35,641 nt of DNA from the NCBI GenBank assembly GCA_013694745.1, contig JACDBU010000101.1:1-35641 (forward strand), given 5' to 3'. Of this stretch, positions 23,372-34,652 are shown in pieces (positions within the stretch are counted from its first letter, which is position 1; every line of letters begins with the position of its first letter). The DNA is from Chitinophagaceae bacterium (lineage in GTDB: Bacteria > Bacteroidota > Bacteroidia > Chitinophagales > Chitinophagaceae). A program made the translations under genes and the position numbers. The notes under the pieces were generated by a model. It saw nothing but the letters and a program-made list of their open reading frames with translations, had not been told where the DNA came from and did no database searches.

Positions 23372-25384
23372 ATGAGAAAAAGCTTTTTGCTCATTTTATT
23401 ATTCTCTTCTGTTTTTATTAACGTGCATGCACAGGATCCTAGTAAAGTTGCCCTAATCATAGCGATCTCAAAGTATCCTGCCGCATCCGGCTGGGGCGAA
23501 TTAAGTAGTAACAATGATGTTAAACTGATAAAAGATGCCCTGATGCGCCAGGGTTTTAAAGAACAAAATATTACGGTGCTTACTGATAAGCAGGCAACCC
23601 TTGTGGGTATGACAAATGCGATAGACAAAGACCTCATAGAAAAAGTAAAGCCGGGCGATATTGCCGTTCTTCACTTTTCTGGTCATGGTCAGCAAATTGA
23701 AGACGACAATGGAGATGAAGGGGATGGCCTTGATGAATCGATTATTCCATACGATGCAAATATCGAATATCACCCCGGTCCGGATAAACATTTTCGCGAT
23801 GACCTGCTTGGGAAAAAACTTGCAGAAACAAGAATGAAGTTGGGAGCAAACGGAAACCTTTTAGTGGTTATAGATGCATGCCATTCCGGAACAATGACAA
23901 GAGGTGTTGGAAAAACAAGGGGTACAAACCAGGTCTATGCAAGTCCAGCATTTAAAACAAAAACCGGAATGGCACGAACCATCAGTGATGATTCGTACGG
24001 GATAATTAATGAAACAAAAGGCATGGCACCAATGGCCTGTTTTTTTGCCTCATCACCTTCAGAACAAAATGAAGAGGCAGTTCTGCCCGATGGTTCCGGT
24101 GCAGGCTCTTTGTCTCTTGCGTTTTCACGGGCCTTATCCAAAGCAGATAAAAATACCAGCTACAGGGCTTTGTTTGATAATATTAAAGTAGAAATGAGTT
24201 CATTAGTTTCAAGACAAACTCCAATGGCAGAAGGAGAACTGGATAATACACTATTTGGTGGAAAGGCACTCGGCAAACCTAAATATTATACCATTACCAA
24301 AGATGATAAAGCCAAAACACTTTCGATACCTGTAGGAAAAATTTATGGCGTTTTTGAGGGAACAACCTTAAAATTATTTAAACCAGACACCAGGGATACC
24401 GCGAATGCGTCGCCTATAGCAAGAGCAACGATCACAGATGCCGGCGAATATTCTTCGGAAATAAAACTGGATAAAACAATCACTGATGATGAATTAAAAA
24501 CCGCCTGGGTTTATATGGATGCAGTGAATTACGGAGACCTTGGTGTAAAAATAAAAACGAATATAGCTGATGAGGGATTAAAGAAAAAGATGGAAGGTGT
24601 ATTCAGTAAAATTAAGCAGGCAACAATAGATAATGATGCTGCTGATCTTTTTTTACAGAGTGGGAGTAGTATTTATTCTGCTGATTCCATATATCTTGTT
24701 AATGCAGGAGAGATGGTTATTTGGTCAGCACCTAAAGGTATGGAAGAGCAAAAAATGTTTGAAAATATTTCAATGAAGATCGGTGATTATGCACGATCAA
24801 AATATTTGCGTAACCTGGCATTAACCAACCCTGTTTATAAAGTGTCTTTTGAATTCGTTCCGTTAAAATGTGTATCGGATTGTGGTACGCATAATGCCAG
24901 GTATATGGATAATAAAATAAGAACCAAATCAGATGCATCGGGAAATATTTTCTTTAAAGACGGCGACAGGTTCAGGCTGAATATCATCAACAACAGCGAC
25001 CAGAAAAGGTTGTATTATACCGTACTGGACATACAGCCTGATAATGTTGTAAATGTTTTGATCCCCGGTACAAAAGATGCTCCGGAAGATTTTTTTATCT
25101 CACAGCAAGATACCATCAGGCTTGATAAAATATTTGTAATAGGTCCGCCATACGGAATTGATGTGCTGAAAATAATTGCTTCGGAAGCGCCGCTCGACCT
25201 ACGGTATATTTTTGAAAGCCGTGGTGCACAAACACGTGGTGCTCCAAAAGGCCCGTTTGAAAATATTTTACAGGGAACCTATAATGCCGAAGGCACGCAC
25301 ACACGCGGACCAAAACAGGTTGCCATACAACCGGATGCAGTAAATATAATTACCGTTCCCTATCATATAATTAAAAACGAATAA
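23372..25384 (+). CDS. Exported caspase-family (metacaspase-like, C14) peptidase with C-terminal DUF4384
   Basis: Signal peptide MRKSFLLILLFSSVFINVHAQ; VALIIAISKYP; catalytic His VLHFSGHGQQ followed by acidic DDNGDEGDGLDE; catalytic Cys VIDACHSGT; C-term GDRFRLNIINNSDQKRLYYTVLDIQPDNVVNVLIP...DFFISQQDTIRL...PPYGIDVLKIIAS (DUF4384-like). Confidence 0.92.
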   Translation: MRKSFLLILLFSSVFINVHAQDPSKVALIIAISKYPAASGWGELSSNNDVKLIKDALMRQGFKEQNITVLTDKQATLVGMTNAIDKDLIEKVKPGDIAVLHFSGHGQQIEDDNGDEGDGLDESIIPYDANIEYHPGPDKHFRDDLLGKKLAETRMKLGANGNLLVVIDACHSGTMTRGVGKTRGTNQVYASPAFKTKTGMARTISDDSYGIINETKGMAPMACFFASSPSEQNEEAVLPDGSGAGSLSLAFSRALSKADKNTSYRALFDNIKVEMSSLVSRQTPMAEGELDNTLFGGKALGKPKYYTITKDDKAKTLSIPVGKIYGVFEGTTLKLFKPDTRDTANASPIARATITDAGEYSSEIKLDKTITDDELKTAWVYMDAVNYGDLGVKIKTNIADEGLKKKMEGVFSKIKQATIDNDAADLFLQSGSSIYSADSIYLVNAGEMVIWSAPKGMEEQKMFENISMKIGDYARSKYLRNLALTNPVYKVSFEFVPLKCVSDCGTHNARYMDNKIRTKSDASGNIFFKDGDRFRLNIINNSDQKRLYYTVLDIQPDNVVNVLIPGTKDAPEDFFISQQDTIRLDKIFVIGPPYGIDVLKIIASEAPLDLRYIFESRGAQTRGAPKGPFENILQGTYNAEGTHTRGPKQVAIQPDAVNIITVPYHIIKNE

Positions 25385-25443
25385 AGTATTTAATTTTTTT
25401 TCTTGACTCAACATTTTTAATAATAAAAACAAAACAAATCAGT

Positions 25444-25854
25444 ATGAAAAAGATCATGTTAATTGCAATTGCAATTATTGGATTATCAATCGCCTTCCAG
25501 GCCCATTCTTATGCGCAGACCGCAAAGAAAAAAGTAATGGTTTTTGGAAAACAGGGTGGTGGTAATTCAAATGCTTCATTGCCATCCGAAGACAAGCCGC
25601 GTGAAAAGAAATCTAAAAAAAGAGGTACTTGTTATCTTTATTTAGATAATTACACAGGATACTATGTTGATGTTTGGGTTGAAGATCAATACCAGGGCCG
25701 CCTTTCACCGTATGCAACATCTGTGCGCTTTGATGTTTGGACCCCGGGTAACTGGACAAAATGGTATGCAAAATCTGCCGGCGGAACTTATTATTGGGAA
25801 AATGACAGCTATTGCAATGACAGCCGTGTTTTCACGATCAATTTAAAGCAGTAA
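25444..25854 (+). CDS. Small secreted protein, unknown function, aromatic-rich C-terminal domain
   Basis: Signal peptide ending AHSYAQ; basic linker KPREKKSKKRG; C-terminal domain with two Cys (TCYLYLDNYTGYYVDVWVEDQY...SYCNDSRVFTINLK). Confidence 0.75.
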   Translation: MKKIMLIAIAIIGLSIAFQAHSYAQTAKKKVMVFGKQGGGNSNASLPSEDKPREKKSKKRGTCYLYLDNYTGYYVDVWVEDQYQGRLSPYATSVRFDVWTPGNWTKWYAKSAGGTYYWENDSYCNDSRVFTINLKQ

Positions 25855-25876
25855 TGTTTTAACGCTTTGCTAAACG

Positions 25877-25916
25877 AAGGGTATAAATAATTTTATTTAT
25901 ACCTTTTGTTTTTTTA
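25877..25916 (+). terminator. Rho-independent terminator between small secreted protein gene and CHASE2 gene
   Basis: AAGGGTATAAATAA/TTATTTATACCTTTT inverted repeat followed by GTTTTTTTA. Confidence 0.65.
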
Positions 25917-25925
25917 GATAACAAC

Positions 25926-27164
25926 GTGCTATCAATTTTAATAAGCCGGAAAGCAATGCTTAAAAACAAACACAATACAGCTAAAAGAAAACATTATGGC
26001 GAATATTTACTGATAAATATTTTTGTATTTGCCGGCATAGGGTTGTTATCGTACGTGGTATTTAATGTTTCAATTTTTAACCAGTTCACTGCAGCATTCA
26101 AAGATTTTACGCTTACCGATCTTTATTTTACCCGCATCATAAATCAAAATAAGATCTATAAAGGTCCTTTGGTACTGGTAAATGTAGAAAATAAGGGAAG
26201 AGCCGAGATCGCTTACCTGATTCAGAAAATTGAAGAATGCAAACCCCGTGTGGTTGGCGTTGATGTAATTTTTCCTGATAAAAAAGATTCATCATCCGAT
26301 GCGCTATTAAAAACAACCCTGGGCGCATACGATAATCTTGTACTTCCCTATGTTGCTGCATTGGGAAACGGCACAAAAGAAATCAGGAACGATCCTTATT
26401 TTGGAACCAAATCAAATTCATTTGTGAATGTTGAAGGTGAAGGTCGCCAGTTTTCAACCATACGGTATTACTATCCGTCGTATCACGATCAAATTGCATT
26501 CACTACTGCCATCATGCAAAAATTTGATACATCAAAAACAAATTACCTGCTAAAAAGAAGCAATGCAAAAACAGAAATAAGATATTATGGTAATCTACAG
26601 AATTTTTTTTACCAAACGTTTGATGAAGTAATGAACCCGGGCTTTGATACAACCCTTTTAAAAGATAAGATCATTCTTTTGGGATATACAGGTTCGCCTG
26701 CATCTGTAAATAATGATATTGATGAAGATAAATTTTTCACACCTTTAAATCCCAGACTTTCGGGTCGTAGTTTCCCCGATATGTATGGACCGGTGATTAA
26801 TGCTAACATCTTAAGGATGGCGCTGGATAAAGATTATATAATTTCTTTCCCACGATGGTTAAATATTGCAGTAGCTTTTTTACTAACACTTTTTTTACTG
26901 CCTCTCTTCATCAGCTGGTATATTTATAAGGCTGTGTGGTTTCATTTATTTACTATGATGCTGCAGTTGCTTATAAGTATATTATTTGTTTTTTTTACCA
27001 TCTGGCTCTATGCAAACGAAAATATAAAAATTGAATCATCAGCAGTACTGATAGCAATTTTACTTATCGGCGACTTTCTTTTATTTTATGATCATTTTGT
27101 AAAATTTCTCCGGCATAAACTGAAAATGAATTTTCATTCAATTTTTTTCAATGCGAGTCATTAA
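25926..27164 (+). CDS. CHASE2-domain sensor protein with C-terminal TM helices and no output domain
   Basis: N-terminal TM; LVLVNVENKGRAEIAYLIQKIEECKPRVVGVDVIFPDKKDSSSDALLKTTL...LLKDKIILLGYTGSP (CHASE2); three C-terminal hydrophobic helices and a short basic tail. An internal ATG (MLKNKH, nt 25956) may be the real start. Confidence 0.87.
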   Translation: MLSILISRKAMLKNKHNTAKRKHYGEYLLINIFVFAGIGLLSYVVFNVSIFNQFTAAFKDFTLTDLYFTRIINQNKIYKGPLVLVNVENKGRAEIAYLIQKIEECKPRVVGVDVIFPDKKDSSSDALLKTTLGAYDNLVLPYVAALGNGTKEIRNDPYFGTKSNSFVNVEGEGRQFSTIRYYYPSYHDQIAFTTAIMQKFDTSKTNYLLKRSNAKTEIRYYGNLQNFFYQTFDEVMNPGFDTTLLKDKIILLGYTGSPASVNNDIDEDKFFTPLNPRLSGRSFPDMYGPVINANILRMALDKDYIISFPRWLNIAVAFLLTLFLLPLFISWYIYKAVWFHLFTMMLQLLISILFVFFTIWLYANENIKIESSAVLIAILLIGDFLLFYDHFVKFLRHKLKMNFHSIFFNASH

Positions 27165-27936
27165 GCTTATATACTTTTTGCTTGTGTTTATTGCTTGTGT
27201 AAAACCTGTTACTGCACAAAAAAATATTGTGGTGTATCATATCTCAGGCGATGTTAAGCTACTGTCAGAAAAAAAATTGTCACCGGCAAAAAGAGGTGAT
27301 ATCATTTCAAAGAAAATGGAATTGATGATTAGCGAAAGCGCAACCTGTATGCTTATTGATCCGGCCGGGAGGTCATTACAAATATCAAAGCCGGCCAGTT
27401 ACAGTTTTGATGCACTTATAAAAATGTTTTCTGCTGCCACTTCTTCTAATGTTAGCGCAGCTTTTTTTAAATACGTGTATGAAAATCTTTTCACTGCTGA
27501 TAAAAACGAAAAACTTGCCGCCACGCCTGTAGTTTTTCGCGGCGAGGATCTCATGAAATCGCCTGGCAATTATTCTATTATAGAACCCGGCGCTATCCTG
27601 TTCACCTGGCGTAAGCTTGCCGGCAAAAACCCGGTGAGGATAATCATCAAAAACGAAAAGGAAGTAATTTTTGATTCTGTTTTTAAAAATTCAATCTTCT
27701 TTAAGTTTAAACCTGGCAATAAAATATTGCCGGCTAATTCCTATACCTGGTCTGCAACAATTAGTGGGGGTAATTCCATTAATGAAAATCATTTTTTGGT
27801 TGAAGACGAGACCGACTACCCGCAGATTAAAAAAAACCTGAAACTTTTAGAAAATAAAAAATTATTGCCTGCAGAAAAATTGCAGTTGCAAGTGGATATT
27901 TTTAATAAGTGGATAAAATTTTATTCACCCGGATAA
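27151..27936 (+). CDS. Exported protein, possible FecR-like beta domain, unknown function
   Basis: Signal peptide ending VTAQ; VVYHISGDVKLLSEKKLSPAKRGDIISKKMELMISESATCMLIDPAGRSLQISKP is FecR-like by eye; overlaps the CHASE2 gene by 14 nt. Confidence 0.65.
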   Translation: MRVIKLIYFLLVFIACVKPVTAQKNIVVYHISGDVKLLSEKKLSPAKRGDIISKKMELMISESATCMLIDPAGRSLQISKPASYSFDALIKMFSAATSSNVSAAFFKYVYENLFTADKNEKLAATPVVFRGEDLMKSPGNYSIIEPGAILFTWRKLAGKNPVRIIIKNEKEVIFDSVFKNSIFFKFKPGNKILPANSYTWSATISGGNSINENHFLVEDETDYPQIKKNLKLLENKKLLPAEKLQLQVDIFNKWIKFYSPG

Positions 27937-27943
27937 AATTTTA

Positions 27944-29239
27944 TCAGGCTAATTTATAAAGTTCAACCGGGTGGCTCCATCCTTTAAGATTGGCTTCCGT
28001 TGCAAGTTCGGGCTTAAGTTCCGGCATGTTTGCATATTCAAATGCTTCCCGGGAAAGCAATATTTGCGAATGCAATTGTTTATTGAATTGCTCTATCCTG
28101 GCGGCTAATATCACTACACCACCCGTTATTGAATATTCACTTTTGAGATTGGTTCCTATATTCCCGGTAACGGCTTTTCCACAATGGATCCCTATACCAA
28201 TATTAAAAGGATGTAATTCTCCTTTCTCAATGGTTGCATCCAGCGTTTGCTTGATCTCCAGGGCAGCCTTAATTGCGTTTCGCGGGGGATTTTCAATCTC
28301 TATGGGAGCACCAAAAGTTATCATGCAGCCATCGCCTAAAAACTGGTTTACTATACCATGATATTTATTAATGATATCAATTATAATCCCAAAAAAAGCA
28401 TTTTGAAATGCAACAAGATTTTCGGGAGTTTGCGTTTCAGCATACACGGTAAAATCTCTTATATCAATAAACATCACGCTCACAAATTTCAGTGAGCTGG
28501 GTACCTTGCCATCCTTATCCAGCAATTCAGTAGCGATCTCTTTGGATATCTGCCGGCTGAAAAGATTGAATAATTTGTTTTCATCTTCTACCAATTCCAC
28601 CGACCGCATTATGCTTTTCTTTAACTGGTTGGCCATAAAAGCAGAAGCAACTCCCGCAAGGAAAAGTAATATTCCCGTGGCATAAATAAAGTATTTACTG
28701 TTCACCAGTTCTTCCATAGCTGAAGAATCGGGAACCTTTTGCTGTTCCATCAAATGAAGAATGGTATAGGCAATAGCAGCCAGGGCGCCCGTAACAAGTG
28801 AAATGAACTTATCAAGATAAAAGGAAGATAAAAAAACAATGAGATAATAGAGGCTAACTAATATCACATCCGATAAGAGAGATGATTTTTTGAAGCTTAC
28901 CGCATATAAATATAACATGATGGTGATAAGCGTTAGCTCTACCAGAGCCGTAAAATATTTAAAATGCGGATGTATTGATTTGCTAAGTTTTTTCAACCGG
29001 TGATCAAGTACCCTGTTGGTTATTATCTCATAAGTAAATAAAATTGCCAGGAAGATCAATAAGGCCTCTGGTAATGGTAACTGGTCAATTAAAGTATGAT
29101 TATGATTTAAAAAAAGACTGATAGATAAAATATAAATAAAAGTAAATATTGCATAGCCTGCAAGTATCGCTGCTCTCAGTTTTTCACTCTGAAGTGTTTC
29201 CCATTCAAATTGTTTTGCGAAGCTGGCAGTTATTTTCAT
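27944..29239 (-). CDS. Six-TM membrane-bound class III adenylate/guanylate cyclase-like protein
   Basis: Six hydrophobic helices; catalytic domain VSVMFIDIRDFTVYAETQTPE...IVNQFLGDGCMITFGAP...NIGIGIHCGKAVTGNIG...EYSITGGVVILAARIEQFNKQ. Confidence 0.9.
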   Translation of the reverse strand: MKITASFAKQFEWETLQSEKLRAAILAGYAIFTFIYILSISLFLNHNHTLIDQLPLPEALLIFLAILFTYEIITNRVLDHRLKKLSKSIHPHFKYFTALVELTLITIMLYLYAVSFKKSSLLSDVILVSLYYLIVFLSSFYLDKFISLVTGALAAIAYTILHLMEQQKVPDSSAMEELVNSKYFIYATGILLFLAGVASAFMANQLKKSIMRSVELVEDENKLFNLFSRQISKEIATELLDKDGKVPSSLKFVSVMFIDIRDFTVYAETQTPENLVAFQNAFFGIIIDIINKYHGIVNQFLGDGCMITFGAPIEIENPPRNAIKAALEIKQTLDATIEKGELHPFNIGIGIHCGKAVTGNIGTNLKSEYSITGGVVILAARIEQFNKQLHSQILLSREAFEYANMPELKPELATEANLKGWSHPVELYKLA

Positions 29240-33650: not shown

Positions 33651-34652
33651 TTATTTTGGTTTGAATGCTTTTAAAAACGCAGCATTATTAAAAGTGGAAG
33701 CGTAATGATTGCTACCAGTACTTCGGTGTATGGTAACAGTACTAGAGGGAATATTATTTTTCTCCTGCGGTTTAAAGGAATCTTCTTTTATTGAATTAGA
33801 AGATTTGTTATCAGCCTGGTAAAATGCATAGCCTGCAAAAAACCACTTTAAATAATCTTTATATCTAACCCAAACAAAACCTTTATCACCCCAGGTATCA
33901 CCCCACGAATTCATTATTTCTATTGCACCTCCATATTTGATATTATCATATCCTATCGCCAGCACTGCATGGCCCATTTTTTCTTTATCCAGGAGGTCTG
34001 TTGGCTGCGGGATCCACAAGGGAGTTTTTAATTTTTGAAAAGAGGCAGGTGTGAATAAACAAAGTACAACCGGCATGCCTCCGGCAAGCGCAGTTTTTAA
34101 TTGTTGCACAGAAGTAACTCTGTAGATCTCATCAATTTTATAATTTGCTGCACTCTGTTCATCTTCCGTCATGGATGGAGGGTATGATGTGCCGTTTTTT
34201 TGTACGCACAAAACTTCACTTGTAAAAGGATAATACGCTGGATATTCAACATCAACAATTGGCGCAAATCCATTGGCTAATACATCTTTTGCGGCTGTTT
34301 CAATCACCAAACCACTATTACAATTTACATCGTCATCACTTTTGTTCCTGTAATAAATGTAGTAGGGACTAAAGCATAAACCGGTTATCTTTTCCCGGTC
34401 TGTCCAGCCCAAACTTTTAGCCGCAAGTATGGTCCGGGCAGTGGCAAATGATTGTGCTACGCAGGTATTTCCCGATTGCGGATATTCCATCGGGGTATAT
34501 TTTTTAAACGAGATTGAGGCAGGAAGTACATCCCTGCTAATGCCAATAGCTTTGCGTTTTGCAAATGCATTTGCATCAAAAATAAGTCCTTGTGATGTTG
34601 CACTATTACCTGCGATAGAAATAATACAAAGGGTTACCAGCAATTTTTTCAT
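33651..34652 (-). CDS. Exported C1 (papain-like) cysteine peptidase
   Basis: Catalytic Cys region PQSGNTCVAQSFATAR; His GHAVLAIGYDN; Asn IMNSWGDTWGDKGFVWVRY. Confidence 0.88.
   Translation of the reverse strand: MKKLLVTLCIISIAGNSATSQGLIFDANAFAKRKAIGISRDVLPASISFKKYTPMEYPQSGNTCVAQSFATARTILAAKSLGWTDREKITGLCFSPYYIYYRNKSDDDVNCNSGLVIETAAKDVLANGFAPIVDVEYPAYYPFTSEVLCVQKNGTSYPPSMTEDEQSAANYKIDEIYRVTSVQQLKTALAGGMPVVLCLFTPASFQKLKTPLWIPQPTDLLDKEKMGHAVLAIGYDNIKYGGAIEIMNSWGDTWGDKGFVWVRYKDYLKWFFAGYAFYQADNKSSNSIKEDSFKPQEKNNIPSSTVTIHRSTGSNHYASTFNNAAFLKAFKPK

Follow-up and report, generated by a model that had tools for sequence, protein, structure and literature searches.

A conserved four-gene cassette in Chitinophagaceae brings a caspase-fold protease, predicted to be exported, together with an orphan CHASE2 protein and its secreted partner

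The window analyzed here, which is the whole 35,641-nucleotide (nt) stretch of contig JACDBU010000101.1 from a Chitinophagaceae bacterium (assembly GCA_013694745.1; genome 2.75 Mb, approximately 87% complete), carries a four-gene unit on the forward strand. The first gene (23372–25384) encodes a C14 protease of the metacaspase/orthocaspase type that is predicted to be exported. It is followed by a gene for a small secreted protein (25444–25854), an intercistronic RNA hairpin (25872–25911), an orphan CHASE2 gene (25926–27164), and the gene of a CHASE2 partner with the label 'FecR-like' (27151–27936). The CHASE2 and partner genes overlap by 14 nt, and the other gaps within the unit are 59 and 71 nt. 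Chromosomal housekeeping genes occupy the flanks: polA and typA in the window, while many relatives have RlmH-like and rhomboid-like genes there. An earlier sequence-only reading had placed five open reading frames here, these four and a nucleotide cyclase on the opposite strand; all were present and all coordinates matched. Its metacaspase, CHASE2, and cyclase labels were borne out by the Pfam models Peptidase_C14, CHASE2, and Guanylate_cyc, and by hydropathy both small proteins that it had called secreted carry a single segment of signal type at the N-terminus.

The order caspase, small protein, CHASE2, and partner recurred in L089, L090, L091, L092, L020 (also G163), and L093, the last of which ends after CHASE2 at a contig edge. 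All of these are Chitinophagaceae, as are the relatives of the window on the CHASE2 tree. Across the cassettes, the CHASE2 proteins were 45–63% and the partners 27–42% identical to those of the window. The four genes form a conserved unit. The five-gene block that had been proposed could be confirmed for its first four members, which remain neighbors in other genomes, whereas the cyclase recurs with them once and is not a neighbor in most genomes. The distribution of CHASE2 genes is patchy, with relatives detected in 14 of 200 genomes of the family and 31 of 297 genomes of the phylum, and the window contains the only CHASE2 gene of its genome.

A total of 106 non-redundant Bacteroidota CHASE2 loci (less than 90% identity) were compared, 61 of which were flanked on each side by 5 kb or more of sequence. 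A partner gene lay within 400 bp in 86 of the 106 loci. Within 5 kb, a protease of one of the unrelated classes C14, CHAT, papain C1, and trypsin-PDZ could be found in 44 of the 61 full-flank loci, and C14 in 39 of the 61 against approximately 0.4 expected by chance (from 73 C14 matches in approximately 120 Mb of 30 related genomes), although the loci are not independent and one Chitinophagaceae clade contributes approximately 30 of them. On the CHASE2 tree, protease presence changed at least 7 times, and protease class, orientation, or side changed 19 times; the association therefore does not reflect one inherited neighborhood. The nearby proteases took the forms of C14 with weak DUF4384, TPR-C14, WD40-C14, Ig-like-C14, CHAT-TPR, papain with weak DUF4384, and trypsin-PDZ. 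Neighbors resembling M16, UvrD, RlmH, rhomboid, and TilS proteins also recurred in some lineages and were taken as housekeeping context.

The caspase of the window, which is the sole C14 gene of its genome, matched Peptidase_C14 above the cut-off (expectation value, E, 8.7e-22), and a signal-type sequence was visible at the N-terminus of its translation. Alignment to solved metacaspases placed the catalytic dyad at His105 (codon 23684–23686) and Cys170 (codon 23879–23881), while the acidic S1-pocket residues D49 and D168 also lined up with those of metacaspases. Among alignable C14 homologues near CHASE2-partner pairs, the His/Cys dyad was kept in 63 of 63, while conservation of the two pocket acids was 62 of 62 and 61 of 63. 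Cleavage after Arg or Lys is the rule among the C14 proteases outside the caspases proper (non-metazoan) that have been characterized to date (PMC5756287). Because the acidic pocket is conserved, the cassette caspase is predicted to share this specificity; proteolytic activity is likewise predicted. The C-terminal DUF4384 domain assigned earlier was present as a match but fell under the Pfam cut-off of 27 bits, scoring 21.1 bits in the window and 26.2 bits in the relative L028.

The CHASE2 protein, with a likely ATG start at 25956, matched the CHASE2 model at E 1.7e-18 as its sole Pfam domain, in agreement with its description as an orphan; no C-terminal output domain (kinase, cyclase, or other) could be found in the Pfam scan. 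Hydropathy analysis revealed one transmembrane (TM) helix, a CHASE2 domain predicted to be extracytoplasmic, and then the three TM helices expected of a CHASE2 receptor. Four TM helices were predicted in 71 of 86 CHASE2 relatives, with a median C-terminal tail of 25 amino acids (aa). The partner was defined by its AlphaFold model, its linkage to CHASE2, and the natural fusions described below. It comprises a signal peptide, a beta-rich domain (residues 26–113), a linker (120–143) with AlphaFold confidence below 50 that sits between two folded domains, an Fn3/Ig-like domain (148–217), and C-terminal helices. No Pfam family matched the partner, and among 28 family members, the window protein and 27 relatives, FecR (PF04773) gave no match up to E 0.1; the earlier FecR family assignment was accordingly dropped. 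The linker contains Arg130 (codon 27538–27540) within the motif G-[AS]-V-x-R. This position was Arg in 77 of 85 partners, seven of the eight exceptions carried Arg or Lys one position before it, and a basic residue was thus present at one of the two positions in 84 of 85. Sequence conservation together with the structural model suggests Arg130 as a candidate processing site, with cleavage putative.

Natural fusions connect these components. In L074 (G474), CHASE2 is followed by a gene whose product combines a signal peptide, the partner N-domain with the linker motif TTASVDR, a C14 domain (E 2.8e-16), and a C-terminal match to an outer-membrane barrel (E 2.4e-6, just above the cut-off). The same partner-caspase-barrel layout was observed in G828 (57% identity), beside a 56% identical CHASE2, and a third homologue lies at the edge of a contig in G830. 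A single protein of L077 contains CHASE2 and the whole partner, whose signal peptide apparently serves as an extra TM helix. These fusions tie the partner to both the caspase and CHASE2, and they would place the caspase and the partner outside the cytoplasm. In the window, caspase and CHASE2 are encoded by separate genes; the fusions detected join partner to caspase and CHASE2 to partner.

The small secreted protein consists of a signal peptide, a basic linker modeled at low confidence, and a beta domain (residues 61–133), as revealed by alignment and an AlphaFold model. Arg60 (codon 25621–25623) lies at the boundary of the linker and the beta domain. In the 27-row family alignment, R stood just before the beta domain in every row, nearly always as R-G, while the rest of the linker was variable. 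Alignment and model suggest Arg60 as a candidate site at which the protein may be processed, cleavage again being putative. When searched on its own, the family was detected in 18 of 345 genomes of the class. A C14 gene was nearby in 11 of 17 credible loci fetched, one of which (L192) also carried CHASE2 and the partner; since these loci were found separately, the link of caspase and small protein is independent of the CHASE2 link. The small protein has no Pfam family, and the fold search gave insignificant matches only, many of them to the VHL beta domain. Most family members (L190–L205) carry a second, upstream linker motif resembling [ST]RGxxPNIK, which is absent from the branch of the window; in these members a short peptide would lie between the two RG sites.

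A hairpin with the stem GGUAUAAA/UUUAUACC, a variable loop, and a U-rich tail was present between the small protein and CHASE2 genes in all seven cassettes. It folded below shuffled sequences, with z = -5.6 in the window and -5.5 to -7.1 in 6 cassettes, and among 17 pairs across the seven cassettes, 6 had double-sided changes; one base pair was swapped in L092. The varying loop length and the covarying pairs fit an RNA better than a DNA operator, which was the other reading considered for the palindrome. The exact motif occurs once in the genome of the window, so a genome-wide repeat could be ruled out, and a search of 61 relatives with a longer pattern recovered it from a single genome of the same genus, where the stretch matches the cassette of L090. 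No Rfam match was obtained in the window, and the consensus of Bacteroidota-type promoters occurred at chance level in the window and was absent before CHASE2. The hairpin, noted earlier as separating the two gene pairs, is real but belongs to the conserved cassette, as a terminator, attenuator, or processing site, and it probably sets the ratio of caspase-small protein to CHASE2-partner expression.

The linkage of the module parts is well supported, whereas protease activity, cleavage at basic residues, the direction of control, the stimulus, and the export of every part are inferred. In the proposed mechanism, the orphan CHASE2 protein would be anchored in the inner membrane, expose its sensor domain on the non-cytoplasmic side, and act together with the secreted partner. 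Both proteins lack an output domain in the cytoplasm, so the pair is presumed to act by controlling the caspase-like protease, Arg/Lys-specific and exported to the compartment that they share. This caspase may cut the partner at the linker basic residue (Arg130), by which the complex would be switched or released, and may cut the small protein after Arg60, freeing the beta domain, while the hairpin would set the relative expression of the two gene pairs. We give roughly even chances to this reading, that the CHASE2/partner sensor controls an exported envelope caspase with proteolysis as its output; it draws on the linkage, the fusions, and the compartment of the parts. Regulation of a protease by sensor state had already been offered in the sequence-only reading, and the conserved linkage and the fusions support it. 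A broader version, in which CHASE2 and the partner are a widespread Bacteroidota receptor pair switching interchangeable exported cysteine or serine proteases, the basic cleavage site of the partner is the trigger, and a caspase-family cascade runs outside the cytoplasm, is advanced only tentatively.

Several observations weigh against the proposed control of the caspase. Known proteases are missing from the surrounding 5 kb of approximately one-third of CHASE2-partner pairs, where the linker basic residue is conserved to the same degree (27 of 27), so it may serve another protease or purpose. The genome-contig loci were picked by similarity to the CHASE2 of the window, and the association was weaker in a broader draw from the phylum (approximately 8 of 19 pairs, read by eye). 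Shallow alignments (28 and 10 rows) may account for part of the low AlphaFold confidence of the linkers. Only some of the loci carry the small protein, and the hairpin could be a plain terminator giving two transcription units.

The pairs that lack a nearby protease would also suit a different role, in which CHASE2 and the partner act as an envelope scaffold or general sensor recruiting whatever maturation or quality-control proteases are available, with the caspase as a client or mere neighbor. The varied neighbors, including trypsin-PDZ, weak M48-like, and M16 proteases as well as NfeD- and SPFH-like proteins in Ignavibacteria, are consistent with this, and so are the resemblance of the partner to Fn3/Ig modules and its terminal TPR-like helices, features typical of scaffolds. 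However, C14 occurs far above expectation and a partner-caspase fusion lies next to CHASE2 in two genomes, and we regard a scaffold as unlikely, although it is the strongest of the competing explanations. The small protein suggests another arrangement, in which the caspase activates a secreted pro-protein and CHASE2 and the partner gate the release. In Bacteroides, the exported clan CD protease fragipain activates two toxins, one of which, Fab1, is cut after Arg (PMC8406203); this precedent, the separately found loci with C14 near the small protein, and the invariant R before its folded C-terminal domain all fit. Nevertheless, no immunity gene or toxin fold was seen and the small protein is missing from most CHASE2-partner-caspase loci, which makes pro-protein activation as the purpose of the cassette rather improbable.

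An anti-phage or programmed-death module with the caspase as effector has to be weighed beside these, as caspase-like proteins are effectors in some bacterial conflict systems (PMC8195603) and the window caspase weakly matches a PADLOC caspase model. Against this, the caspase, partner, and small protein are all predicted to be exported, the flanks are chromosomal housekeeping genes, and the other three cassette proteins have no PADLOC match; a known defense system was rejected because single-gene matches (caspase and cyclase models) do not make up a PADLOC gene set, and a defense role appears improbable. Even less probable is the conversion of envelope signals into a cyclic nucleotide by the adjacent cyclase (27944–29239, reverse strand), a class III enzyme with a Guanylate_cyc catalytic domain (E 3.3e-19) and, as described earlier, six TM helices by hydropathy. 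The cyclase is convergent with the module both in the window and in L089, whose wider flanks differ and whose homologue is 66% identical. However, that is the only other cassette it adjoins; it is absent beside L090, L091, L092, L020, and every other CHASE2-partner locus examined, and at the threshold used the 200 family genomes contained one homologue of 36% identity. The cytoplasmic nucleotide signal proposed earlier is further disfavored by the lack of a cytoplasmic output domain in CHASE2. The cyclase was therefore not retained as a module member and is probably a bystander. Class III cyclases usually carry Lys and Asn at the base-selecting and catalytic positions. There, both the window cyclase and the homologue from L089 have the sequences NQFLGDG and GGVVILAARIE, so the nucleotide made may be unusual. 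The cyclase also matches PycC models of PADLOC.

Further neighbors were recorded around the cassette and the wider CHASE2 family. A secreted papain-family (C1) protease is encoded at 33651–34652 on the reverse strand of the window, approximately 6 kb from the cassette; the genome has one further C1 match, and the protease is related to the C1-DUF4384 proteases of the CHASE2-partner loci L065, L066, and L067 in other members of the phylum. In Ignavibacteria-type loci (L070, L073, L082, L158, and L168), the genes after the CHASE2-partner pair are NfeD-like and SPFH/stomatin-like, as judged from sequence, with no C14. One secreted trypsin-PDZ family adjoins small protein-C14 pairs in five loci (L197, L198, L200, L201, and L203) and CHASE2-partner pairs in four (L028, L095, L098, and L102). 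A lipoprotein-like family of approximately 320 aa lies near the pair in L025, L028, L095, L098, L102, and L108; a Pfam scan of the L025 member gave no match.

The coupling of a caspase-fold protease to a CHASE2 sensor has counterparts in Trichodesmium erythraeum, which encodes a caspase-CHASE2 fusion protein with a caspase predicted to be cytoplasmic (PMC2853523, PMC3501461), and in the EACC2-caspase proteins, which carry a C-terminal CHASE2 (PMC8195603). The window system differs from the known cyanobacterial fusions in being split into separate genes, in its caspase, which is predicted to be exported, and in having two further components, the periplasmic partner and the small secreted protein. 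As in the CHASE2 histidine kinase/LysM-FecR operon of Burkholderia and P. aeruginosa (PMC5192318), a CHASE2 gene adjoins a secreted FecR-type gene; however, CHASE2 in that operon carries a kinase and signals via a response regulator, whereas the window CHASE2 has no output domain, and the present family has exported proteases as neighbors and no Pfam FecR match. Fragipain of Bacteroides fragilis is likewise an exported clan CD cysteine protease of Bacteroidota that cuts secreted pro-proteins after Arg, but it belongs to C11 rather than C14, its substrates are toxins, and no CHASE2 or partner is described for it (PMC8406203). The cyanobacterial orthocaspase MaOC1 shares the prokaryotic C14 fold and His/Cys dyad, in a group with generally basic P1, but is p20-only and without an envelope module (PMC5756287). 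A survey of metacaspase operons (PMC3501461) makes no mention of the four-gene arrangement, and no description of it was found in the literature searched, in which most subscription journals lay outside the coverage.

Little is known of what caspase homologues do in prokaryotes, where they are usually discussed in terms of cytoplasmic cell death. The present module would place caspase homologues outside the cytoplasm together with a sensor pair, making their substrates and regulation directly testable, and it supplies two candidate substrates, the partner and the small protein, each with a near-invariant basic linker residue. For orphan CHASE2 proteins, which have no output domain, it suggests a function, and it raises the possibility that cleavage of the caspase type serves signaling within the envelope of bacteria.

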